Source: a virus
Length of the DNA stretch: 36,775 nucleotides
Virus record (IMG/VR): IMGVR_UViG_3300027784_000684
Location: 1 to 36,775 of that record
Direction: 5' to 3' (one strand)
Under the pieces are notes generated by a model. It had not been told where the DNA came from and ran no database searches. It was given only the letters and a program-made list of their open reading frames with translations. Shown in pieces: positions 1-36,501 of the stretch. How positions within the stretch are numbered: the first letter of the stretch is position 1; each line of letters begins with the position of its first letter. The translations under genes were made by a program, and so were the position numbers.

Positions 1-98
1 GCACTGGCCTCGGACATAAAACCCAAATCTTCAATCCTCATACCAGTATGTTGTAGCACATCGTCAACAGAACTATAGTATTTCTTTTCCTCCGCCAT
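1..98 (-). CDS. Partial CDS, probable head-tail connector/adaptor
   Basis: Only the first 32 codons are inside the window; the gene runs off the left edge. The ATG at 98 follows the stop of the zinc-finger gene by one base, and GGTGG lies just upstream. The visible protein begins MAEEKKYYSSVDDVLQHTG and then has an acidic, helical-looking stretch (MRIEDLGFMSEAS). An opening with 'ysSvddVl..tG' is common in gp6-like head-tail connector proteins, and the position after the capsid and another small head gene fits. The function is inferred mainly from position, since too little sequence is visible to be sure. Confidence 0.5.
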   Translation of the reverse strand, partial: MAEEKKYYSSVDDVLQHTGMRIEDLGFMSEAS

Positions 99-14542: not shown

Positions 14543-15946
14543 TTATTGTTTCTGGAATTTGGTCATCAACATCGTTATTCCACCAGAAAGACCGATTACC
14601 AACAACGATCCAGCAATGCTCCAGTTCACAAGCCCGTTAAAGTTACCATATCCGAAAATAGGGACTCCTACAAATAAAGCCGAAGCAATCCCCCAGAACA
14701 CGCCTTTCTCGGATATTTTTACCTGTGGTTTTAATAAAGAAATAACTGTCGGTGCAAGCACGACAGCCCTCAATATACCGTAAAACAGAAATAAATAGAG
14801 AATTTGCATTCCCGGCAGATTGGCAATTACCAAGGCGATAACCGCCAGGACAATCATCGACACTCGTCCTCTATAGGTTGCTTTTTCCTTCAGTGAAAAG
14901 TCATGTCCTACAATTGAAGCTATTGCGCACAAATTACTATCAAGCGTAGAGACAAGCCCGCACATGATCATGTAGGTAAAGGCAACAACCGCCCAAATAG
15001 GCAGGTATGCGACAACAACTTCAAGGTTAACCCATTGTGGATTATCGATCTGCATACCCGTTCCTGCTGCTGCGAATCCCAGCATTGACATGGTTAAAGG
15101 GACAAGTCCGAAAATAAAAGCACCGAGGATAAAAGACTTCTTGATCGCATCTTTCTTTAGAGCAAAAGAACGCTGCCAGAAAGATTGATCCCCGAACGGT
15201 CCTGCGATTAAACCTATTGTGGTAGCTATCCCGAAAGAGTAGAACACGGTTGCCCCATCACCGCTAAAGATGCTGGTGTAAGTACCGGTATAGCCACCGA
15301 TTCCATCAATAACGGTCTGAAAGCCACCGGCCTGCGACACAGCCCATGGCGCTAAAGTGAAACCAACCACAAGGATTAGTACCATTTGCGCATAATCTGT
15401 TATGACCGAAGCTTTCAAGCCTGACCACAATGAGTAACTAATCGCGATCCCAGCCATGGTTAAAGTTATCCAAATAAATGGTATCCCGGTAAGTAGAGAA
15501 AGTATCCCTGCCCCCGCTAGTAATTGCACTGCGAAAGAACAGACAGCTAATCCTCCGAGTTCGATAACATAAAGATTTCGGACTCGTTTAGAATACCTCT
15601 CCGTCATATAATCCGACAGTGTGTAGCCGTTAGGAACGAGATCCCGAATTCTCACCGCAAAGTATGCAAAGATTATCAAACATAAGATATTGGGCACAGT
15701 AAACCAAAACAATCCCGCTATTCCTTCCGTAAATGCTTTTTGCGCGGCTACAAATAAAGCCGGCGCCCAAATCCAGGTAGCAGCGATTGAAGTTGCGCCC
15801 TTCCACGCCCCGATTTCCCTGTTTGCGACCAAGAAGAACTCCTTTGTCCTCGTTTTACCGATAGATGTAGCCCAGGTAAGCAAAAGAACAAAAGCAAAAT
15901 AGGTCGCTAATAATAAAACACCTTGAATCTGAGTGAAAATCTGCAT
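14543..15946 (-). CDS. Sodium:solute symporter (SSS family)
   Basis: This complete integral membrane transporter of 467 residues has about 12-13 hydrophobic spans. SSS features include REIGAWKGATSIAATWIWAP near the start, TDYAQMVLILVVGF, GPFGDQSFWQRSFALKKDA (similar to the urea/solute branch) and MCGLVSTLDSNLCAIASIVGHD, in the place of the sodium-site helix with S-T-L-D-S. I chose the ATG at 15946, which has AAAGGAGAG upstream; the frame reaches 16036 but those extra 30 residues are encoded by a tandem repeat and lack a ribosome site. It is the first gene after the late promoters and terminator. Transporters of this size are rare in phages. Substrate unknown. Confidence 0.88.
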   Translation of the reverse strand: MQIFTQIQGVLLLATYFAFVLLLTWATSIGKTRTKEFFLVANREIGAWKGATSIAATWIWAPALFVAAQKAFTEGIAGLFWFTVPNILCLIIFAYFAVRIRDLVPNGYTLSDYMTERYSKRVRNLYVIELGGLAVCSFAVQLLAGAGILSLLTGIPFIWITLTMAGIAISYSLWSGLKASVITDYAQMVLILVVGFTLAPWAVSQAGGFQTVIDGIGGYTGTYTSIFSGDGATVFYSFGIATTIGLIAGPFGDQSFWQRSFALKKDAIKKSFILGAFIFGLVPLTMSMLGFAAAGTGMQIDNPQWVNLEVVVAYLPIWAVVAFTYMIMCGLVSTLDSNLCAIASIVGHDFSLKEKATYRGRVSMIVLAVIALVIANLPGMQILYLFLFYGILRAVVLAPTVISLLKPQVKISEKGVFWGIASALFVGVPIFGYGNFNGLVNWSIAGSLLVIGLSGGITMLMTKFQKQ

Positions 15947-15960
15947 TAGTTTCTCTCCTT

Positions 15961-15995
15961 TGGCATGATTAGCCGAGTTTTTGGCATGATTAGCC
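15961..15995 (-). repeat. Tandem 14-bp repeats upstream of symporter
   Basis: TGGCATGATTAGCC occurs at 15961-15974 and again, unchanged, at 15982-15995 on the plus strand. The 21-base offset is two turns of the helix, so a protein could bind both on the same face of the DNA. They lie just before the ribosome binding site of the symporter, a good place for a repressor site or an mRNA-binding site. Confidence 0.6.
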
Positions 15996-15998
15996 AGT

Positions 15999-16027
15999 TT
16001 AATATGTAAAAGCGCTTTCGATGACCA
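15999..16027 (-). promoter_or_regulatory. cre-like operator in a weak putative promoter
   Basis: On the plus strand TAAAAGCGCTTTCG (16007-16020) matches 12 of 14 positions of the palindrome TGAAAGCGCTTTCA bound by CcpA and other LacI-family regulators. On the minus strand it fills the 17-base spacer of a poor promoter, TGGTCA (16027-16022) and TATTAA (16004-15999). If real, host carbon-catabolite control could act on the phage symporter. The operator is the better supported part. Confidence 0.4.
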
Positions 16028-16065
16028 GTCGAACACGCGAACATCAGCAACTCAAGGTAAAAGGA

Positions 16066-20321: not shown

Positions 20322-20346
20322 TGTTCACCCTCCAGTAATTTAATTT

Positions 20347-20676
20347 GTAACCATGTAACCGTGTAACCGGTAAAAACACCATGTGTATATTTATGTAATG
20401 AACGTACTTTTATATATTGATTTAGATTGCACTTGTGCATAGTATAGTACTATGGTTACAATGGTTACTATGGTTACAATGTATATATAGCCCCTATTTT
20501 AAAGGGTTTTTTCTGTAACCAACTTGTTACCAAAATAGCCATTGTAACCGGTAAAACTCTCAATTTTCCAGAATATTGCATATCCCACTTTTGGGAAAGA
20601 TAGCCTTTTGTGTTATATTTCATCAATAACTCCTTCCATATCCAATTTCGAGCTAAGTTTTGGTTACAATGGTTAC
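20347..20676. repeat. Iteron array, putative replication origin
   Basis: The 350-base gap between the clamp and the primase-helicase holds ten copies of the core GGTTAC/GTAACC: GTAACC at 20347, 20355, 20363, 20515 and 20544, and GGTTAC at 20454, 20463, 20472, 20662 and 20671. They form groups of three, three and two with 8-9 base steps; chance would give far less than one copy. Both orientations occur and AT-rich stretches lie between. This is the layout of an iteron-type origin beside replication genes. It could also be an operator array for the clamp promoter, and no clear promoter is seen here. Confidence 0.7.
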
Positions 20677-20677
20677 A

Positions 20678-23215
20678 TCATTTATTCCAATATTTATCAT
20701 TCAAGGGGTCATCTTCCTCATGATATTCATCGCCGTTTTCTGGAATTTCAAGCTCGTAAAATCTAGAAACAACATCTCCGATTCGCTTAACTTTCGCATA
20801 CCGACCTTCCTTATCTGGCAATTTCAGGTAACCCTTCTCGGTGAAATTCTGTAAGGTTGAACGATAATTAAAACCCTGTTTTTCTAAAGCGTCCTTCATT
20901 ATCGTGGGGAAAATATAATACTTAAATGACTCGTAAAAACCAAAACGAGGTTCTCTGGCATCATCAGTAAATTGTTTAGGGTTAGATTTTATCCAATCCT
21001 GCAAAAACTCCCAAGCCCTTTCTCCGGCATCGGCCTCACTGGCTCGAATCAGTTTTTCTGCAATCTCCATCGCCATATCTAACGAAGCTCCGCGTGCTTC
21101 GTCTTTGCTTGCTTCGGGATTAAATAACAACTGCTCAATTAACGTGTCCGCTATACAAATTACCGACAAGGCCGAAATATGAGTCTGCAGGTATTCTTCC
21201 TTATTAGAATTTAAATGCTCGGTTAAGAATTGTAAGAACCACTTGTGCTGATCCCTTAATTCGTCGCCTTTCATTTTAATAATCTCTTTAATAAACGCTG
21301 GCCCAGCTGCACCGTAACTGCCTAATGCGTGAGCTTTTTGTGCCTCGATCTCGTTATCAAATGGAGCGCCGTAAACTTCAAGCACCCGGGAATGAACTCC
21401 TGAATAAGAACCTTGATGCGTTAACGGTTCCTCTCCGGTCGTCAAAACTATCGTTCGCCAGGATTGTGTGGCCTGTAAACCACCTTGTTTCGCACCACGA
21501 ATCTTACCTGTGCCAAGAGCGAGCATATACATTAAGTTATCCGAGAAATCCGTATGTGTATTGACCTGTCTTTCATCGACTCCAAGCGGTAAATCCCTGA
21601 AAAAACCAGCAAGTCTCTCAATCCCAACTTTTGTGGTAAAGAACGAAGCCATAAGTGAATCAGGTTCGCCCCAGGCCGATAAAGCTGCTTTCAAAGCAGC
21701 GGTCTTTCCTGAACGTGTTTTGCCCCAATTGTGAACAATGAATATTCTGTGCCCAATAATCCTCAAAAGCGGAGCCGCGAAACTGGCCGCAAGTATAAAC
21801 CTAAAGATCGGATTTTTTCTGAACGGGGCAACCGTAGTTATCCAATCTTCAAGCGTCCCAGCTTCGTGGTAACCCTCAAGCCATTGACGCGTGGAGTCAT
21901 CTACATCAATTACAAGGTCTTCATTGTGTCCTGGAATGAACTGCTTACCGTGCCAGCCTAACTGGCTTACACAAGTCGCTCTTTGTAAAATGTCGATATT
22001 TTCTGCCTCTAAAGAGGACAAAAATTTAACCAGCATACGGGCATTTTCACTCGTTGCCGTAACTCCATATTCTGCTAATATGGGAATTGATTTAGCTTGG
22101 AATACCGTCGTTCGCTGAGTGATTATACTCTGCCACTTTCCATCTCGTCTAAAAGCTACCTCGATTTTCTCTTGCCCGGTCTCCGCTGAAGTGAGTCTTC
22201 TGACTATCAAAATAGGTGTTCGACATACACATACTGGATGCCCGGTCTTTTCATCTATCACATAAATACCATCTTTCGTGAAACGCCAGTTCGAAACTTG
22301 CCTTAACTGAACCGGAGCATCGCTTATTACATCTTCGGGCTTGCCGGCCACTTGCTGATAGTCGATTTCTTCAGCTATCGAAAGAGCTTTTTCCCAATGT
22401 TCTTTGAAATCATCCGGACTCTTACAGTGCAGCTCTGATGGATCCTTCGCACTTATTAAAGTTAAGACCTTAACGTCGCCCTTCTCCCATGGTGGGTTCG
22501 CTTGATGAAGCGCTTCGCATATTTTACGGACAAAAGTTTCTCCGCCCGCATCTTCCTCCCGGAAGATATAAATATTAAGCCCTCTCATATACTCTACCCA
22601 CCCAGGTTGGAATACCGATGCTCCAGGAACTCCCAAAGCATGGAATCCGTGATACCATAATGTATGACAATCACTTTCTCCTTCAACAATAACCACGTAA
22701 CCAGCCTCACGTACTTTCGGTAATCTCCATAGGCCGTAAAGCGAAACCTTGCTGCCTCGAGTCCAGGTGAAACGTGGACCTGACCCCGAATCACCATAAC
22801 GCTGTCGGTTACTTATTGCATTTCCGCTCTCGTCGAGATATGGAATAGAAATGCCCGTTTTAGAGTTTTGGATTTTAAGTTCTTTCAAAAACTCAACAGG
22901 TAACTTCTTGGCTTTTGCATAATCCTCAAGTGTGTATTTCCGAGGTTTGTTTTTAATCCCGGCTCTTTCATTTAATATCTTCAAAGCTTCGGCGTTCGTT
23001 ATTTGCATGTATTCTTGGAGGAAAGTTTGCGCGTTACCTTTCTTATCGCACCCGTAACACTTCCACTGACCCGTTTGAACACTTGCCGTAAAACTCGGGT
23101 CAGTGTCATTGTGCAGCGGACACAAACCTTTCAGCTCATCTCCACTGATTGATGGTTCTTTTATAAATTCAGAGTAAAACTCTGCCCAATTAATCTTTTC
23201 GTCATATTCTGCCAC
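20678..23215 (-). CDS. Toprim primase / DUF927 helicase fusion
   Basis: This 845-residue replication protein has a CHC2-like zinc finger (CPLH and CYGC; C32, H35, C53, C56), a Toprim domain with VVIVEGESD near 174-182 and REEDAG as the later acidic motif, a DUF927 region, and a helicase-type P-loop GKTRSGKT at 498-505 followed by GVDERQ and FSDNLMYMLA. It would synthesise primers and unwind DNA at the phage fork. The GTG at 23215 has AAAGGAGGTAG at ideal spacing, so the longer frame to 23269 is not used. The adjacent iterons suggest origin binding by it or a partner. Confidence 0.88.
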   Translation of the reverse strand: MAEYDEKINWAEFYSEFIKEPSISGDELKGLCPLHNDTDPSFTASVQTGQWKCYGCDKKGNAQTFLQEYMQITNAEALKILNERAGIKNKPRKYTLEDYAKAKKLPVEFLKELKIQNSKTGISIPYLDESGNAISNRQRYGDSGSGPRFTWTRGSKVSLYGLWRLPKVREAGYVVIVEGESDCHTLWYHGFHALGVPGASVFQPGWVEYMRGLNIYIFREEDAGGETFVRKICEALHQANPPWEKGDVKVLTLISAKDPSELHCKSPDDFKEHWEKALSIAEEIDYQQVAGKPEDVISDAPVQLRQVSNWRFTKDGIYVIDEKTGHPVCVCRTPILIVRRLTSAETGQEKIEVAFRRDGKWQSIITQRTTVFQAKSIPILAEYGVTATSENARMLVKFLSSLEAENIDILQRATCVSQLGWHGKQFIPGHNEDLVIDVDDSTRQWLEGYHEAGTLEDWITTVAPFRKNPIFRFILAASFAAPLLRIIGHRIFIVHNWGKTRSGKTAALKAALSAWGEPDSLMASFFTTKVGIERLAGFFRDLPLGVDERQVNTHTDFSDNLMYMLALGTGKIRGAKQGGLQATQSWRTIVLTTGEEPLTHQGSYSGVHSRVLEVYGAPFDNEIEAQKAHALGSYGAAGPAFIKEIIKMKGDELRDQHKWFLQFLTEHLNSNKEEYLQTHISALSVICIADTLIEQLLFNPEASKDEARGASLDMAMEIAEKLIRASEADAGERAWEFLQDWIKSNPKQFTDDAREPRFGFYESFKYYIFPTIMKDALEKQGFNYRSTLQNFTEKGYLKLPDKEGRYAKVKRIGDVVSRFYELEIPENGDEYHEEDDPLNDKYWNK

Positions 23216-23245
23216 CTTGCTACCTCCTTTACTGAGAATGAAAAT

Positions 23246-23283
23246 GGGAGTAAAGCGAGGAGCAACCACTCTTGATTACTCCC
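23246..23283 (-). other. Hairpin before primase-helicase gene
   Basis: Within the 104-base gap upstream of the primase-helicase, GGGAGTAA (23283-23276 on the minus strand) can pair with TTACTCCC (23253-23246) across 22 bases, followed by ATTTTCATT. It is weak as a terminator but could lower readthrough or shape the leader before the ribosome site. Another TACTCCC lies at about 23296-23302. Confidence 0.4.
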
Positions 23284-23319
23284 CGTTTACAGGGATACTC
23301 CCACTGTTCGAGGGAACGA

Positions 23320-27777: not shown

Positions 27778-28002
27778 TTAGTTTTTCTCTATGTTTTTCA
27801 CTAACTCCCAAACTAATTTCATTCCAACTCCATACAGTCGAGCAAATTTATCTGCCCGGTCCATCGTCATCCTGCGTTTACCGTGTTCAAGCAAACTAAC
27901 CAGGGACGGGTCAACACCTAACTCTGCACCCACTTGGTCCAGAGTCAAACCCTTACTTTTTCGCAAATCACTAAGGGTCTTGAACTCCGTCCTTGTTTCC
28001 AT
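27778..28002 (-). CDS. XRE-family repressor
   Basis: This 74-residue protein is a single Cro/CI-type helix-turn-helix domain: LSDLRKSKGLTLDQVGAELG with the recognition helix in VDPSLVSLLEHGKRRM, then TMDRADKFARLYGV. There is no peptidase or oligomerisation domain. Its promoter is overlapped by TTGACA-N3-TGTCAA, and the same 15 bases occur at the early promoter at 36.2 kb, so it very likely represses both itself and early transcription. Unlike typical repressors it is encoded within the early gene run on the same strand, more like a Cro-type feedback regulator. Confidence 0.9.
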   Translation of the reverse strand: METRTEFKTLSDLRKSKGLTLDQVGAELGVDPSLVSLLEHGKRRMTMDRADKFARLYGVGMKLVWELVKNIEKN

Positions 28003-28022: not shown

Positions 28023-28051
28023 AATATACCAAAAAATTGACAAAATGTCAA
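28023..28051 (-). promoter_or_regulatory. XRE gene promoter with palindromic operator
   Basis: TTGACA (28051-28046), 17 bases, TATATT (28028-28023). The palindrome TTGACATTTTGTCAA (28051-28037) covers the -35 and part of the spacer, so a bound repressor would block polymerase. The 15-base palindrome and the promoter geometry are identical to those at 36.2 kb. About 20 bases separate the -10 from the XRE start codon. Confidence 0.85.
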
Positions 28052-31303: not shown

Positions 31304-31337
31304 CTTTTTCTCCTCCTTTAATTGTTAAACACTCCAT

Positions 31338-31363
31338 CCTGCCCACCGTGCGGGGTGAGCAGG
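31338..31363 (-). other. Hairpin leader A
   Basis: On the minus strand CCTGCTCACC (31363-31354) and GGTGGGCAGG (31347-31338) form a ten-pair stem, one pair G-T, around CCGCAC. It lies between a zinc-ribbon gene and the 121-residue gene, about 35 bases before the start codon. There is no T run, so it is an mRNA-processing, stability or translation element rather than a terminator. The segment TGCACCTGCTCA is shared with leader C. Confidence 0.55.
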
Positions 31364-31369
31364 TGCAAC

Positions 31370-31570
31370 CTACAGGTAGTAGTCAACGCAGGTGTCGCAG
31401 ACCTTAGCGGACTCCCACTTATGAGCGAGGTTCATAGCATTCATGATTTCCTCGAACTCATCAATTTCAACATTGTTCAGTTTCTGGGAACCAAGGTCTA
31501 TCCTCTGTGGTTCAACCATTTTACCACAGACTTCGCATTTAACAGGGTCCAGGATGTTGTGTTCTTTCAT
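31370..31570 (-). CDS. Small zinc-ribbon protein, paralog 1
   Basis: This 66-residue protein carries KCEVCGKMVEPQRIDLGSQK, then NNVEIDEFEEIMNAMNLAHK and SAKVCDTCVDYYL. The two CxxC pairs make one zinc ribbon. It aligns over its whole length with the 60-residue protein at 32066-32248, so the two are clear paralogs. I chose the ATG at 31570, which has GGAGGTGCTGAA upstream; the open frame reaches 31624 through leader B. Function unknown. Confidence 0.7.
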   Translation of the reverse strand: MKEHNILDPVKCEVCGKMVEPQRIDLGSQKLNNVEIDEFEEIMNAMNLAHKWESAKVCDTCVDYYL

Positions 31571-31576
31571 TTCAGC

Positions 31577-31632
31577 ACCTCCATTTAGTGTGAACCATAA
31601 GCTCCAGCGAACCGCCTCAAACAAGGCGGCTC
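31577..31632 (-). other. Hairpin leader B
   Basis: The stem GAGCCGCCT (31632-31624) and AGGCGGTTC (31617-31609), nine pairs with one G-T, encloses TGTTTG. It is followed by a segment ending in the ribosome site (31607-31577) that is nearly the same as in leader C: CTGGAGCTTA, then a G-containing turn, TCACA and TAAATGGAGGT. The repeated UTR suggests a shared translation or processing control for the two genes. Confidence 0.55.
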
Positions 31633-31639
31633 AAGCAAC

Positions 31640-31948
31640 TTATGCTGTGGGGTGTTTCATGTGAACCATGTCCGGTGCAACCTCGACCAACATGGTAAGA
31701 ACTTTAAGCGCAAACTCAAGTTGTTGTTGCATCTTAATGGCTTCTTCCAAATTCATGTGAGTTCCGACTGTCGCCAAGGTGAACCGCCCTGACCAGTATT
31801 CGACCTTCACAAACAACTGGCGCCGACGTTCATCTTCGAGAAGATGTTCGGGCTGTGTGATGCTCCACCAAAGATGCTTGTTGATTTCAGTAAATCCAAA
31901 ATGCTCCAGAACCTTAACGATTTGCTCTTCCTGAATACTCATTTTCAT
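31640..31948 (-). CDS. Hypothetical protein
   Basis: This 102-residue protein begins MKMSIQEEQIVKVLEHFGFT and continues HLWWSITQPEHLLEDERRRQ, LFVKVEYWSGRFTLATVGTH and NLEEAIKMQQQLEFALKVLT. It looks like an alpha/beta domain with a helical C-terminus. I chose the ATG at 31948, which has TTGGAGG at ideal spacing from leader C; the frame runs on to 31996 through the leader. Not recognised. Confidence 0.6.
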   Translation of the reverse strand: MKMSIQEEQIVKVLEHFGFTEINKHLWWSITQPEHLLEDERRRQLFVKVEYWSGRFTLATVGTHMNLEEAIKMQQQLEFALKVLTMLVEVAPDMVHMKHPTA

Positions 31949-31955
31949 TTCAAAT

Positions 31956-32030
31956 ACCTCCAATTTAATGTGAGCTGTAAGCTCCAGAAGGCCCACCGTT
32001 TCCGATGAGCAGGTGCAGGGTTTAACCTGC
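31956..32030 (-). other. Hairpin leader C with GNRA loop
   Basis: It starts with GCAGG (32030-32026) pairing CCTGC (32019-32015). GCTCATCG (32010-32003) and CGGTGGGC (31998-31991) then pair around a GAAA tetraloop, and the segment CTGGAGCTTA...TCACA...TTGGAGG shared with leader B follows. GAGCT and AGCTC within this segment can form another small hairpin. A ribosome site (GGAGGTGTTTAAA) at the start of this region precedes a four-codon frame (M-N-A-G), possibly a leader peptide or a remnant. Confidence 0.55.
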
Positions 32031-32065
32031 GTTCATTTTAAACACCTCCGTTCAAGATTAACAGT

Positions 32066-32248
32066 TTATGCGTAATACTCTACACATTCGATACAGATTT
32101 TAGCGTTCTGCCAATCCTGACCAAGGCCAAGAGTTTCGATAATGTCCTCGAACTTTTCGATCGGTATTTCGTTCAGAACTTTTGTTCCCATGTTTATTTT
32201 CTCTTCCGCAACATTTCGACCACATGAATCACACTTGATATTTATCAT
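32066..32248 (-). CDS. Small zinc-ribbon protein, paralog 2
   Basis: This 60-residue protein has CDSCGRNVAEEKINMGTKVL, then IPIEKFEDIIETLGLGQDWQ and AKICIECVEYYA. The CxxC pairs and the segment between them line up with paralog 1 at 31370-31570, including the I/L-G-S/T-x-K-L-N motif and the closing C-x2-C-V-x-Y-Y. The start at 32248 overlaps the previous stop as ATGA with GGGAGG upstream. Function unknown. Confidence 0.7.
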   Translation of the reverse strand: MINIKCDSCGRNVAEEKINMGTKVLNEIPIEKFEDIIETLGLGQDWQNAKICIECVEYYA

Positions 32249-32889: not shown

Positions 32890-33444
32890 TTACAAACAAT
32901 ATTCATCTACCTCTCGTTGAAACTGTTTCCCTGCATCACATTCCATGCAAGCATACGTCCGCTCAACCCCGTCCATGTCTTCCGGAATTATAACCACACC
33001 CGTATTTTCGCATCTTTCGCAGTAGGACATACCAACGCCAATATTGGGCTTCAAGATATCTTGTTCGGGCTTAATCTTAAAATCTTTATACCCTTGCAAT
33101 ATACTTTGAAGATACCAGGCAGACGGTTGTTTGTAGTGGGAGCTGTTCATGTGGTAAACCATTGCCAGTACATGCTTGTTATGTTCCGGAAGATATACTG
33201 CATAATAAAGCCGACCGTAAAGTTTCGGATACCCTTCATAACGGTCAAGTGCTTTTAAACACTTTTTCGTTATCTTCCAAACAGCGCCCTTGACCTCTGA
33301 CCCGAAGGACGGGATAACGTCTGCCACGTCCCTGAACACGAGCCTGTGGTCTTCAAGAACCGCAAACCCGATAGGCTTCGCCTTCGGACAGCGAGCTTTC
33401 ATTTGTTCCTTATTTAAGTTTGAGCCGTAAGCGAAATATAGCAT
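32890..33444 (-). CDS. Gamma-glutamylcyclotransferase-like protein with zinc ribbon
   Basis: Residues 1-130 form a GGCT/AIG2 fold: YFAYGSNLNKEQM at the start, VLEDHRLVFRDV, KGAVWKITKKCLKALDRYEG with the catalytic Glu70 in DRYEGYP, and LYGRLYYAVYL. Enzymes of this fold release 5-oxoproline from gamma-glutamyl amines or peptides. A C-terminal zinc ribbon follows: C142-x2-C145 and C166-x2-C169. The fusion is unusual and may target the enzyme to a protein partner. The start touches the stop of the previous gene. Genes for an amidoligase and a DNA ligase lie just upstream. Confidence 0.85.
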   Translation of the reverse strand: MLYFAYGSNLNKEQMKARCPKAKPIGFAVLEDHRLVFRDVADVIPSFGSEVKGAVWKITKKCLKALDRYEGYPKLYGRLYYAVYLPEHNKHVLAMVYHMNSSHYKQPSAWYLQSILQGYKDFKIKPEQDILKPNIGVGMSYCERCENTGVVIIPEDMDGVERTYACMECDAGKQFQREVDEYCL

Positions 33445-33701: not shown

Positions 33702-34544
33702 CTATTTTAATATTTCTTTGTTCACAAAACGTAATTGCTCGGTAGTGCAATCTTCTGGCTCTTTATCTGGACGATTGCGTAAGTGTGTCGGTTGAACTAA
33801 CGCTCCGCCTGCGCCTGTATAAAGATACTTGACCTCAATCACTTCACCGATATTCGCTACCGGTTTTCCGATTGTCGAACAACGTCCAACCTCAACCTCA
33901 TGGCCTTCGTTATCATACAAGGCCAATCGAACCCAATTACCCTGACCGTTACGACCGTTGCCAGGACCACGTTCGATTACAAACACGTCAACCGTATGGG
34001 TAATTTTCGCTTTAAGCACATGGTTGACCCGTTCCCCATCAACCAATTTACCGTCCTTATGTTTGAACACTCCACCCTCGACACCGGCTTCGACGATACG
34101 CTTCCAGGCATCGCGCTTTTGTGCGGTTCCGGTCCACGTGGGCGACAATCTCACCCAATCGTTTTCCGGGGAAAACTGTATTAGCGGAAAAACCTCCCGG
34201 CTCAATGCTGTCCAACGCTCGCGCCAAGGACTATCATACTCAACTTCTGCGAAGTCCCAACCGCTGCATCGTGGCATATCGAACAAATACCATTTGCCAT
34301 CGACAATCTCGCCCTCAAGCTCAATAAACCCTGTAAAATCTCTTGCTAAAAGCTTTATCTTTTCAACGACCGGAGCAGCGGTTGAACTCACAAGCTCTTC
34401 ACCTCTGCCACCGATTACTTTAATTTCTCCGTTTACGATGAGCCTGGCTCTAATTCCGTCAATCTTTTGCTGTAAATCCCAGTTGTCATTTGCCAGCCAC
34501 TCGTCAACCTCATTTAAGTCTATTGAGTTATAACGCATTAACAT
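33702..34544 (-). CDS. ATP-dependent DNA ligase
   Basis: This protein of about 280 residues is the length of a minimal phage ligase. Motif I KIDG holds the nucleotide-accepting Lys27 in LQQKIDGIRARL; motif III/IIIa is FIELEGEIVDGKWYLFDM; motif IV is EGGVFKHK; motif V is LKAKITHTVDVFV. After it comes an OB-fold part ending GEVIEVKYLYTGAGGALVQP. It seals nicks with ATP in replication or repair. I chose the ATG at 34544, which has GGGAGG eight bases upstream; two other ATGs lie within six bases on each side and the frame runs to 34628. Confidence 0.87.
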   Translation of the reverse strand: MLMRYNSIDLNEVDEWLANDNWDLQQKIDGIRARLIVNGEIKVIGGRGEELVSSTAAPVVEKIKLLARDFTGFIELEGEIVDGKWYLFDMPRCSGWDFAEVEYDSPWRERWTALSREVFPLIQFSPENDWVRLSPTWTGTAQKRDAWKRIVEAGVEGGVFKHKDGKLVDGERVNHVLKAKITHTVDVFVIERGPGNGRNGQGNWVRLALYDNEGHEVEVGRCSTIGKPVANIGEVIEVKYLYTGAGGALVQPTHLRNRPDKEPEDCTTEQLRFVNKEILK

Positions 34545-34569
34545 TATCATTACCTCCCGTTTGATTAAA

Positions 34570-35463
34570 TCAAACGGCCAGCTTACGCTGACGCTTCTTG
34601 TAATATTTGATAACATCGTCAAGCACATTGCTTGTGCTCTTGAACTTTAGCATGGTTGTAAACCGCTGCCAGTTGTCAACCTGTCCGTCCTTGCGACTGA
34701 CAATCTTGCCTCTAAACGTCCGCTCAACCATTGCTTGAGTCAAGCAAACCCAATTGGCGATCTTGGTAAACTCAAGAGTTCCGCTATGGTGACGAAACTC
34801 AATCGTGCTGTGAGTGACAAACGAGCGGAAGTTGAGCTTCAAGAACCTTGAGCCCCTGAAGAAATTAACGATCTCTCTTACGCTGTTGCAGCCTTCAATT
34901 GCCCGGTTTGCTCGCTCGAGGTCATAAATGTCTCCGAAGTAACTACTGTTACTTTGGCAATATTGGTTGTTATTCCCTCTCCGGCTGTTCGGCATCAGCG
35001 AGTCGAGCGTATTTTCAAAGCGTGCGTATATTTTAGCTAAGTCCCGGAAGTTTTGAATGCCAAAATCTTGTGTCCCGTGATGAATGTGAAGCCCGCAAGT
35101 ACGGTTGACCTCACAATCGCTTTCCTGTAAATCTTCGCATACACTCTTGAGCTGACGCAATCCCTCTGCGCCATCGCTTTCCTGTAAAGCTTCGCATACA
35201 ATCTTGAGCTGACGCAATCCCTCTGCGCCCTTCAGTATCGGCGATACAATCTCCCGTGCCGTCCGAACGCCACGGTTTCGCTGCGCCATGTTCGGTTTTA
35301 CCGAGCTATCAGTTACGATTTTCCACCAGGTGCGTGTTTCGTGGTTGTAATTTTCGCAACGAACGTCGATGCCTTTATTGCGAATCCTGCGGGTCAAGCC
35401 CTGCACATTCTTGCAAATGAACTCAATCTCGATACCGTATGTTCGCTCGTTATTGATAAGCAT
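34570..35463 (-). CDS. Amidoligase-family protein
   Basis: This 297-residue protein shows the Amidoligase_2 pattern (COOH-NH2 ligase related to glutamine synthetase): YGIEIEF at 9-15 with the metal-binding Glu pair, WWKIVTDSSVKP, REIVSPIL, and CGLHIHHG with H126/H128/H129; later FRSFVTHSTIEFRHHSGTLE. Such enzymes form amide or peptide bonds to glutamate-like carboxylates, and phage copies have been described with gamma-glutamylcyclotransferases, as here. Residues 79-97 and 98-116 are near-identical duplicates of a 19-residue helix. The start at 35463 has GGGAGG. Confidence 0.87.
   Translation of the reverse strand: MLINNERTYGIEIEFICKNVQGLTRRIRNKGIDVRCENYNHETRTWWKIVTDSSVKPNMAQRNRGVRTAREIVSPILKGAEGLRQLKIVCEALQESDGAEGLRQLKSVCEDLQESDCEVNRTCGLHIHHGTQDFGIQNFRDLAKIYARFENTLDSLMPNSRRGNNNQYCQSNSSYFGDIYDLERANRAIEGCNSVREIVNFFRGSRFLKLNFRSFVTHSTIEFRHHSGTLEFTKIANWVCLTQAMVERTFRGKIVSRKDGQVDNWQRFTTMLKFKSTSNVLDDVIKYYKKRQRKLAV
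35116..35229 (-). repeat. 57-bp tandem duplication inside amidoligase gene
   Basis: Bases 35116-35172 and 35173-35229 are two direct copies that differ at only two positions. They encode residues 79-97 and 98-116, GAEGLRQLK followed by I or S, VCE, A or D, and LQESD. The exact 57-base unit keeps the frame. The near identity points to a recent event. Confidence 0.9.
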
Positions 35464-35488: not shown

Positions 35489-35674
35489 TCAAGCTATTGA
35501 TACGAACTCTCTAAATATCTGTCTTGCTTCGCTCTCATTTACCCACCCAAGGTTTTCAATCGTCTCATATTTTTTCTTCGAGGTAAGCACTTGAATCGCG
35601 TAACCTCTTGACCAGCCAAGGCTTGCTAACCTGTAAACACTACCTCTGACTTTTTCTCTCTTGACCGTCCTCAT
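35489..35674 (-). CDS. Small hypothetical protein, first gene of early operon
   Basis: This 61-residue basic protein (MRTVKREKVRGSVYRLASLG, then WSRGYAIQVLTSKKKYETIE and NESEARQIFREFVSIA) is the first open frame after the terminator of the GC-rich leader. AAGGAGG stands before its ATG at 35674. The basic N-terminus suggests nucleic-acid binding. Not recognised; position makes it a candidate early regulator. Confidence 0.6.
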   Translation of the reverse strand: MRTVKREKVRGSVYRLASLGWSRGYAIQVLTSKKKYETIENLGWVNESEARQIFREFVSIA

Positions 35675-35705
35675 TGTATCACCTCCTTAAATTTGAACAT
35701 CATAA

Positions 35706-35735
35706 AAGGCATTAGGTTTGTTGCCCTAATGCCTT
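35706..35735 (-). terminator. Hairpin terminator after the early leader RNA
   Basis: AAGGCATTAGG (35735-35725) and CCTAATGCCTT (35716-35706) pair over eleven bases around an 8-base loop on the minus strand, followed by TTATG so that the transcript ends CCTTTTAT. The stem is strong and the T tract moderate. It would end most transcripts from the 36.2 kb promoter before the early genes unless read through. Confidence 0.75.
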
Positions 35736-36191
35736 ATGTTGATAATCAAATTCGATTGGTTTCTCTGACTTCCTCACCCTTCGTTAACTTCGGGCTCCCC
35801 GGCGCTTCCGTCTTTAGCGTCTCTGTTGGCTCATCGCCTCCACCCTCTAAGGCACACTGCCTCTCGGGGTTTCTCTGACTCGCCTGCTGCTGACGCCCTT
35901 CCACGACTTACGGCTCTTCGCAATCCGATGTTTCTGGGCTCGTGATATCCGGTGTCGTCCGGGAGCTAACGGGGTCGTCCAATCGCTCGCCCGCGTTATC
36001 TCTTTTTATCTTCCGTCCGCTTGCCCTCAGCCGTTCTTTCAGCCTCTCCCAATCTCCCTAACTTACTTTAGCGAGGTCTCTCTTTCAGTATCTTCAGGAG
36101 CTTGAGCTTGCTTGGTAGCGTGAGCTTTAGTCAAGCTTTCGGTTGTAAAAGAACAGTCATTCTTCGTGCTTGTTAGTCTATTGCCTCTTTC
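35706..36191 (-). ncRNA. Candidate large structured RNA under operator control
   Basis: About 485 nt lie between a strong operator-regulated promoter and an intrinsic terminator and contain no minus-strand frame of 60 codons. By direct count 35761-36060 is about 58% GC, visibly richer than the flanking genes, a usual sign of structured RNA in AT-rich phages. Visible helices include AGCTTGA with TCAAGCT (36137-36131 and 36105-36099), ACCC/GGGT enclosing AGGCA/TGCCT (35870-35842), a possible CACGA/TCGTG plus GCCC/GGGC pseudoknot near 35900-35944, and the direct repeat AGTCAGAGAAACC at 35880 and 35770. It may be a large phage ncRNA of the ROOL/GOLLD kind or a leader for RNA-based antitermination; I cannot assign a known family. 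Confidence 0.6.
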
Positions 36192-36197
36192 ATATAT

Positions 36198-36249
36198 AAT
36201 ATAGCATTTTCTTGACAAAATGTCAAGAAAAAAGTTGTCAAAATGTCAA
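36198..36249 (-). promoter_or_regulatory. Early promoter with two repressor operators
   Basis: TTGACA (36226-36221), 17 bases, TATATT (36203-36198). Operator 1, TTGACATTTTGTCAA (36226-36212), is identical in all 15 bases to the operator at the XRE gene and covers the -35. Operator 2 (36249-36235) has one changed base and lies 23 bases upstream. Transcription would start near 36191. The pairing of operator and promoter geometry with the XRE gene makes repression by its product very likely. Confidence 0.85.
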
Positions 36250-36441
36250 AAAAAACTCGTTTCCGATGCAGATTAATTTAATAGACATCGAAATCAGCTT
36301 AATTCACCCATAAATTGTAAAACCTCTCAGAGAGCCTGTATTTGCCCTCTATGGCGATTTTATAAAAACGTGACATTTACCCTTCGGTAGTATGTTAGAA
36401 TCGAACCTACCCCCAAAAATATTGGTGTTGTCACAAGAGAA
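36250..36441. other. Intergenic control region without genes
   Basis: I see no coding sequence here. It holds a short CTCTCAGAGAG palindrome (about 36326-36336) and, on the minus strand at 36411-36384, a sequence like the 3' end of a tRNA: GTAGGTTCGATTC, then TAACATACTACC. The latter could be an attachment-site core, but no tRNA body or integrase is present. Confidence 0.4.
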
Positions 36442-36467
36442 AGACCTCCCGTTTTCACGAGAGGTCT
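36442..36467 (-). terminator. Terminator after the holin-like gene
   Basis: On the minus strand AGACCTCTCGT (36467-36457) pairs with ACGGGAGGTCT (36452-36442) around a GAAA tetraloop, eleven pairs with one G-T, and TTCTCTT follows. It lies 35 bases after the holin-like gene and separates the end of the late operon from the early control region. Confidence 0.82.
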
Positions 36468-36501
36468 AAATAATGGCGTACACGCCACCAAGGGGGTAAC
36501 T

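Follow-up and report, generated by a model that had tools for sequence, protein, structure and literature searches.

The put RNA of phage HK022 is a leader that lets RNA polymerase pass the terminators of the early operon, and it acts as a folded RNA without a boxA. The short signal boxA allows bacterial RNA polymerase to continue through the rRNA genes. On its own, the boxA of E. coli acts mainly against Rho, and phage lambda needs the protein N at intrinsic terminators (PMC5725501, PMC4807359). In Gram-positive bacteria, the EAR, LoaP and conAn systems provide processive antitermination past intrinsic hairpins, and boxA is not described as a component of these systems (PMC12691694).

The phage leader analyzed here resembles each of these systems in part. 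As in the rRNA operons, a boxA soon follows a strong promoter, ahead of a long, untranslated and GC-richer RNA, whereas the RNA is not rRNA, is apparently controlled by a repressor, and is followed by a terminator and then by protein genes. As at a lambda nut site, the boxA stands at the start of a phage early operon with a putative repressor and a terminator ahead of the early genes, and a possible 5-bp hairpin follows about 10 nt on; however, no N protein is recognised, the hairpin is weak, and the leader is several times longer. The leader is comparable to put in that it may act as an RNA leader, but its signal is a linear boxA and its folding is ordinary. Past intrinsic hairpins, it would act as EAR, LoaP and conAn do, although an Rfam search of the leader gave no match to EAR. 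Like GOLLD and ROOL, it is phage-encoded, untranslated and hundreds of nucleotides long, and three GOLLD loci among the matches listed also lie behind a promoter and a boxA; unlike them, it has no Rfam match, no tRNA neighbours and no sign of extensive structure, and heads an early operon. We rate the chances as about even that a boxA (NusB-S10) antitermination leader heads a repressor-controlled early operon here, the untranslated product of which may also accumulate.

The locus, its promoter and a candidate repressor

The window, by which we mean the whole stretch of DNA analyzed, is the linear IMG/VR virus record IMGVR_UViG_3300027784_000684 of 36,775 bases, the recognisable genes of which all lie on the minus strand. 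The terminase, portal and head genes that it encodes, together with a primase/helicase with 48% identity to its counterpart in Thermoanaerobacterium phage THSA-485A, suggest that the phage infects Bacillota-like hosts. The longest gene-free same-strand gap of the contig, at 35675-36501, spans 827 nt (runner-up, 356 nt). On its upstream side, the unit is isolated by the terminator of the lysis-side genes (36442-36467, minus strand), which has an 11-bp stem, a T-rich tail and a d-score of 27.1. The first early gene (35489-35674, minus strand) encodes a 61-aa protein with a basic N-terminus, for which no family was recognised and the model obtained is a single-sequence one. In the same gap, the minus-strand sequence GGTAGGTTCGATTCTAACATACTACC at 36385-36420 looks like the T arm and 3' end of a tRNA, a common property of attachment sites; no tRNA was called at this position.

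The original prediction placed a promoter and a repressor operator ahead of the leader, and both were confirmed. The promoter P1 (36198-36226, minus strand) reads TTGACA-17-TATATT, has 11 of the 12 consensus bases and carries a TG before the -10 element; transcription would start at about 36191. The first operator is the perfect palindrome TTGACAAAATGTCAA at 36212-36226, which overlaps the -35 element of P1, and the second, TTGTCAAAATGTCAA at 36235-36249, lies 23 bases upstream and has one change relative to the first. Perfect matches to TTGNCAAAATGTCAA occur three times in the whole window, at these two sites and at 28037-28051. The third site covers the -35 element of a second promoter, P2 (28023-28051, minus strand), which also has 11 of 12 consensus bases and the same geometry as P1, and which stands just before the gene for a 74-aa Cro/CI-type helix-turn-helix protein (27778-28002, minus strand; Pfam HTH_3, 6e-10). 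The operator common to the early promoter P1 and to the regulator's own promoter links this gene to the leader unit, and the simplest inference from these sites is that the 74-aa protein represses both P1 and P2.

Elsewhere in the window, an AT-rich gap with iterons on both sides directly follows the DUF927 primase/helicase gene, at 20322-20677. Gaps of this kind, of 320-406 nt, are also seen in related phages (L046, 10771-11135; L049, 12536-12941; L045, 10545-10869; L044, after the primase). The layout is common to these phages and the iteron sequence is phage-specific (TGGTTACA, GGTAACCG, CTGGTAAGG, TAGTGGTAAC and AGACGTAAC). The gap probably serves as the origin of replication, its iterons changing in step with the initiator.

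The leader stretch could also be a DNA element, a replication origin or an attachment site, rather than an RNA. It is flanked by the lysis side and the early genes, a frequent place for attachment sites. However, none of the window proteins scanned was recognised as an integrase, the leader stretch contains no iterons, and 20322-20677 holds a candidate iteron-type origin whose layout matches that of the relatives. In view of this candidate elsewhere, a replication origin at the leader was rejected, and we regard a DNA element of either kind as very improbable.

The untranslated body of the leader

The body of the leader (35756-36146, minus strand) is U-poor, purine-rich and GC-richer, and carries no coding signal. 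The codon-usage scores of the three minus-strand frames were 0.05, 0.09 and -0.09 bits per codon, compared to about 0.14-0.39 for real genes, and the open fragments of the leader had no match in Pfam or PHROG. On these results, coding in any frame was rejected, and the proposed absence of coding capacity holds, over about 440 nt. A search for tRNA in about 36191-35706 found none.

The composition of the leader was less extreme in GC than the roughly 58% originally given. The GC content of the 485 nt is 51.3%, which corresponds to the 99.8th percentile of the contig, and 60% is reached only at 35800-35999. The U content, 13.3% over 436 nt, is practically the contig minimum (contig mean, 25%). 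As the best U-poor segment of the contig, 36146-35756 scored 29.8, compared to 23.4 for the next segment and 19.5 for the maximum of 200 mononucleotide shuffles, and it covers the sequence between the end of boxA and the end hairpin. The body also contains the 13-base direct repeat that had been noticed, AGTCAGAGAAACC, at 35868-35880 and 35758-35770 (minus strand).

For the full 485 nt, the folding z-score was -3.0, and it was -1.5 when the end hairpin was removed. The z-scores of 25 control segments taken from elsewhere in the contig had a mean of -0.5 and a standard deviation of 1.3, and the leader interior thus lies within the range of the contig, so that extensive structure is unsupported by energy alone. 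The only strong structure in the leader is the terminal hairpin; once it is removed, the several helices originally described are not borne out by a folding energy beyond that of the controls. Searches against Rfam at gathering and relaxed thresholds, which had been proposed for all models including ROOL, GOLLD, OLE and HEARO, yielded only chance families and no match to these four. The interior z-score and the absence of an Rfam match leave the suggestion of a large structured phage RNA unsupported, although the boxA-led units of other phages, some of which carry tRNA arrays or GOLLD, give it some probability.

The nucleotide searches for homologs, also proposed, found none for the RNA body in INPHARED, PLSDB and the related loci, nor in two draws of about 400 Bacillota genomes, the searches of which had no positive control. 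Three Bacillota matches to the DNA query were confined to the promoter stretch, which is AT-rich, and were not counted as homologs. In IMG/VR, the exact promoter and repeat-pair patterns gave no match. The searches there turned up no close relative of the phage: single queries with the amidoligase, the primase or the 61-aa gene recovered none; the terminase recovered five distant relatives (30-45% identity), and a search with a primase alignment yielded 95 loci, none of which contained the RNA. The ROOL and GOLLD models gave no match in 398 Bacillota genomes, in which the controls were silent too.

Ordinary folding energy and the lack of homologs would fit a body that is neutral or decaying, such as a dead gene or a foreign insert, with only the promoter and operators being of importance and the boxA present by chance. 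The GC content unusual for the contig and the small internal repeats are also consistent with this explanation. However, there is no residual coding signal or family match, the compositional island coincides with the span from boxA to the hairpin, and a chance boxA at this place has an expectation of about 1e-4, as described below. A decaying body is therefore unlikely. The same island, which starts where boxA ends and stops just short of the hairpin, would also be expected if the unit produced a stable and functional non-coding RNA, about 440-485 nt long, with its 3' end at the hairpin; against this, the interior folds no better than shuffles, and neither an Rfam match nor a homolog was found.

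boxA in the leader and in other phages

The sequence TGTTCTTTTACAAC at 36142-36155 (minus strand), at about +36 and hence in the 5' part of the transcript, is a boxA and contains the sole perfect TGYTCTTTNANAAC in the window. With both strands of the window counted, TGYTCTTTNANA matches twice, compared to 0.29 expected from shuffles, and on the minus strand there is no match other than that in the leader. About 1e-4 chance matches are expected in the 31 positions that lie 25-55 nt behind the -10 element of P1, a number to which hindsight applies, as the motif was spotted by reading.

As a positive control, the Bacillota rRNA form TGNTCTTTGAAAACT was searched in 25 Bacillota genomes, of which six had matches. 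In most of the fetched Bacillota loci, it is located 87-126 nt before the 5' end of the 16S rRNA; matches to a looser boxA pattern, searched in four different genomes, were not near rRNA. The boxA of the window differs from TGNTCTTTGAAAACT at positions 9 and 11, and is one position off the published consensus GYTCTTTAANA (PMC5725501), which is gamma-proteobacterial (E. coli). Downstream of boxA, the sequence AGCTT-GACTA-AAGCT (36123-36137, minus strand) forms a possible boxB-like hairpin of 5 bp in one local fold, and is replaced by other pairing in a second fold.

A similar layout was found in L005, one of the terminase relatives. After its integrase gene and ahead of its early genes, L005 carries the promoter TTGACA-17-TACAAT with a TGACA/TGTCA palindrome, then a boxA 33 nt after the -10 element and a GC-rich leader, the first gene lying about 130 nt beyond boxA. 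The leaders of the window and of L005 showed weak similarity (p 0.01-0.02 against shuffles), which was not taken as proof of homology.

The pattern TTGACA-16..18-TANNNT-25..55-TGYTCTTTNANAA was used to scan IMG/VR, and at least 120 stretches with a promoter followed by boxA were found. Among the matches listed, 82 places were readable, and 61 remained after near-duplicates were removed. The gap from the -10 element to boxA was 25-31 nt in 41 of these 61 non-redundant places, compared to 14 expected (p about 1e-13, among the matches listed); the 42-nt gap in the window is longer than usual. In 31 of the 82 places read among the matches listed, a tRNA array follows boxA, mostly starting 14-19 nt after it. 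Rfam GOLLD RNA lies downstream on the same strand in three listed loci: in L180, no same-strand open frame of 60 aa separates boxA from GOLLD, L144 has a 67-aa same-strand open frame between them, and in L156 tRNAs precede GOLLD behind boxA. Other listed places have protein genes up to a few hundred nucleotides downstream. An enrichment of promoter-boxA pairs in IMG/VR is indicated by the distribution of the gap and by the sequences found behind boxA. The tRNA arrays, GOLLD RNAs and long leaders found downstream suggest that a promoter-boxA pair in phages often marks untranslated RNA units and, in some cases, long leaders.

In the loci L107-L186, a short hairpin such as GTTGAGAAATCAAC is often found just before boxA, behind a sigma-70-type promoter.

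These loci also bear on the stable-RNA explanation, according to which boxA would serve the RNA itself, by aiding its folding or shielding it from Rho, similarly to rRNA, the tRNA arrays of phages and the GOLLD units; read-through into the early genes would then be secondary. The boxA-led phage units among the listed IMG/VR loci often carry stable RNAs, and the leader of the window exceeds what antitermination needs, as judged from the about 130 nt between boxA and the first gene in L005.

The end hairpin and probable read-through into the early genes

The leader ends in a terminator-type hairpin at 35706-35735 (minus strand), as had been predicted, with a z-score of -7.8 for 35680-35760. It has a GC-containing stem of 9 bp and a U-rich tail, UUUUAU, as expected for an intrinsic terminator, and its d-score of 19.6 is exceeded on the minus strand only by those of two clear terminators, although a simpler scan missed it. 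Outer pairs lengthen the stem to about 35753-35689, and the hairpin stops at the ribosome-binding site of the 61-aa gene.

Strong GC-rich hairpins right before ribosome-binding sites are seen at 31304-32065, about 34544-34590, 35680-35760 and 23215-23300. The presence of similar hairpins before other early genes suggests that a role of the end hairpin in mRNA stability or translation is possible. The hairpins at 31304-31369 and 31949-32065 have CACCTGCTCA...CGGTGGGC in common, which looks like the copying of an element between genes.

From the end hairpin to 28051, no minus-strand promoter above the shuffle level was found, and the early genes therefore probably need read-through from P1. In this respect, the leader is not clearly the free-standing unit that was originally described. 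The terminator score of the hairpin is good enough for a stable RNA to end there, but such an RNA would leave the early genes without a promoter; together with the folding and homology results, we consider a stable functional RNA a possible but doubtful explanation.

Several other genes of the window are noted here as separate observations. The early operon encodes a gamma-glutamyl cyclotransferase (GGACT/AIG2) and an amidoligase (32890-33444 and 34570-35463), which are possibly a peptide-tagging or peptide-trimming pair. Two similar small cysteine-containing proteins with CEVCGK and CDSCGR motifs, encoded in one operon at 31370-31624 and 32066-32248, are apparently paralogs. At 14543-16036, a sodium:solute symporter (Pfam SSF, 3e-24), which is unusual phage cargo, lies amid phage genes; it adjoins two PAPS-reductase-like genes and has a promoter with 12 of 12 consensus bases ahead, at 16208-16179.

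The antitermination-leader explanation would operate as follows. The Cro/CI-type protein would repress P1 and its own promoter, and, when repression is lifted, the P1 transcript would start with about 485 untranslated bases. The host NusB-S10 would bind boxA at about +36 and, with other Nus factors, would make RNA polymerase resistant to termination, as in the rRNA operons and at lambda nut sites. Polymerase modified in this way would pass through the leader and, in a share of the cases, also through the hairpin at 35735-35706, to transcribe the early genes (35674 to about 28088), for which no other promoter is recognisable. Transcripts ending at the hairpin would constitute a 485-nt RNA that may accumulate. 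A boxB might be provided by the 5-bp hairpin downstream of boxA, and an N-like partner by the basic protein of 61 aa, both being weak candidates.

This explanation draws on the unique perfect boxA, the rRNA control, the layout of L005 and the gap preference in IMG/VR, as well as on the hairpin before the first gene, the lack of another early promoter and the operators that link P1 to the regulator. Against it weigh the hindsight in spotting the motif, the mismatches to the consensus forms, the 42-nt gap, the lack of homologs in the collections searched and the possible role of the hairpin in translation or stability, and also the fact that boxA of E. coli without N mainly opposes Rho, not intrinsic terminators. 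Taken together, these observations suggest, without proving it, that the phage uses boxA to read through the leader and the terminator. A put-like read-through leader had been one of the two original suggestions; it agrees in kind, given the boxA, the Bacillota rRNA control and the phage-wide association, but the element itself is not put.

More tentatively, and with considerable doubt, the leader could represent a new class of untranslated phage RNA that is led by a promoter and boxA, is controlled by a repressor, and both accumulates and passes a termination-resistant polymerase on, with boxA being a general front of stable-RNA units such as tRNA arrays and GOLLD. Among the open-licence papers searched, none connected GOLLD with boxA in this sense, and none connected phage tRNA with both boxA and antitermination.

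Should boxA be functional in this leader, a phage that is similar to those of Bacillota would run its early operon by lambda-like logic without a recognised N protein. A boxA behind the promoters of phage tRNA arrays and GOLLD would offer a simple handle to find untranslated RNA units in phage genomes, and the boxA-GOLLD pattern provides a testable clue to the transcription of giant phage RNAs. The phage-wide association of boxA may thus be more generally useful than the single case of the window.
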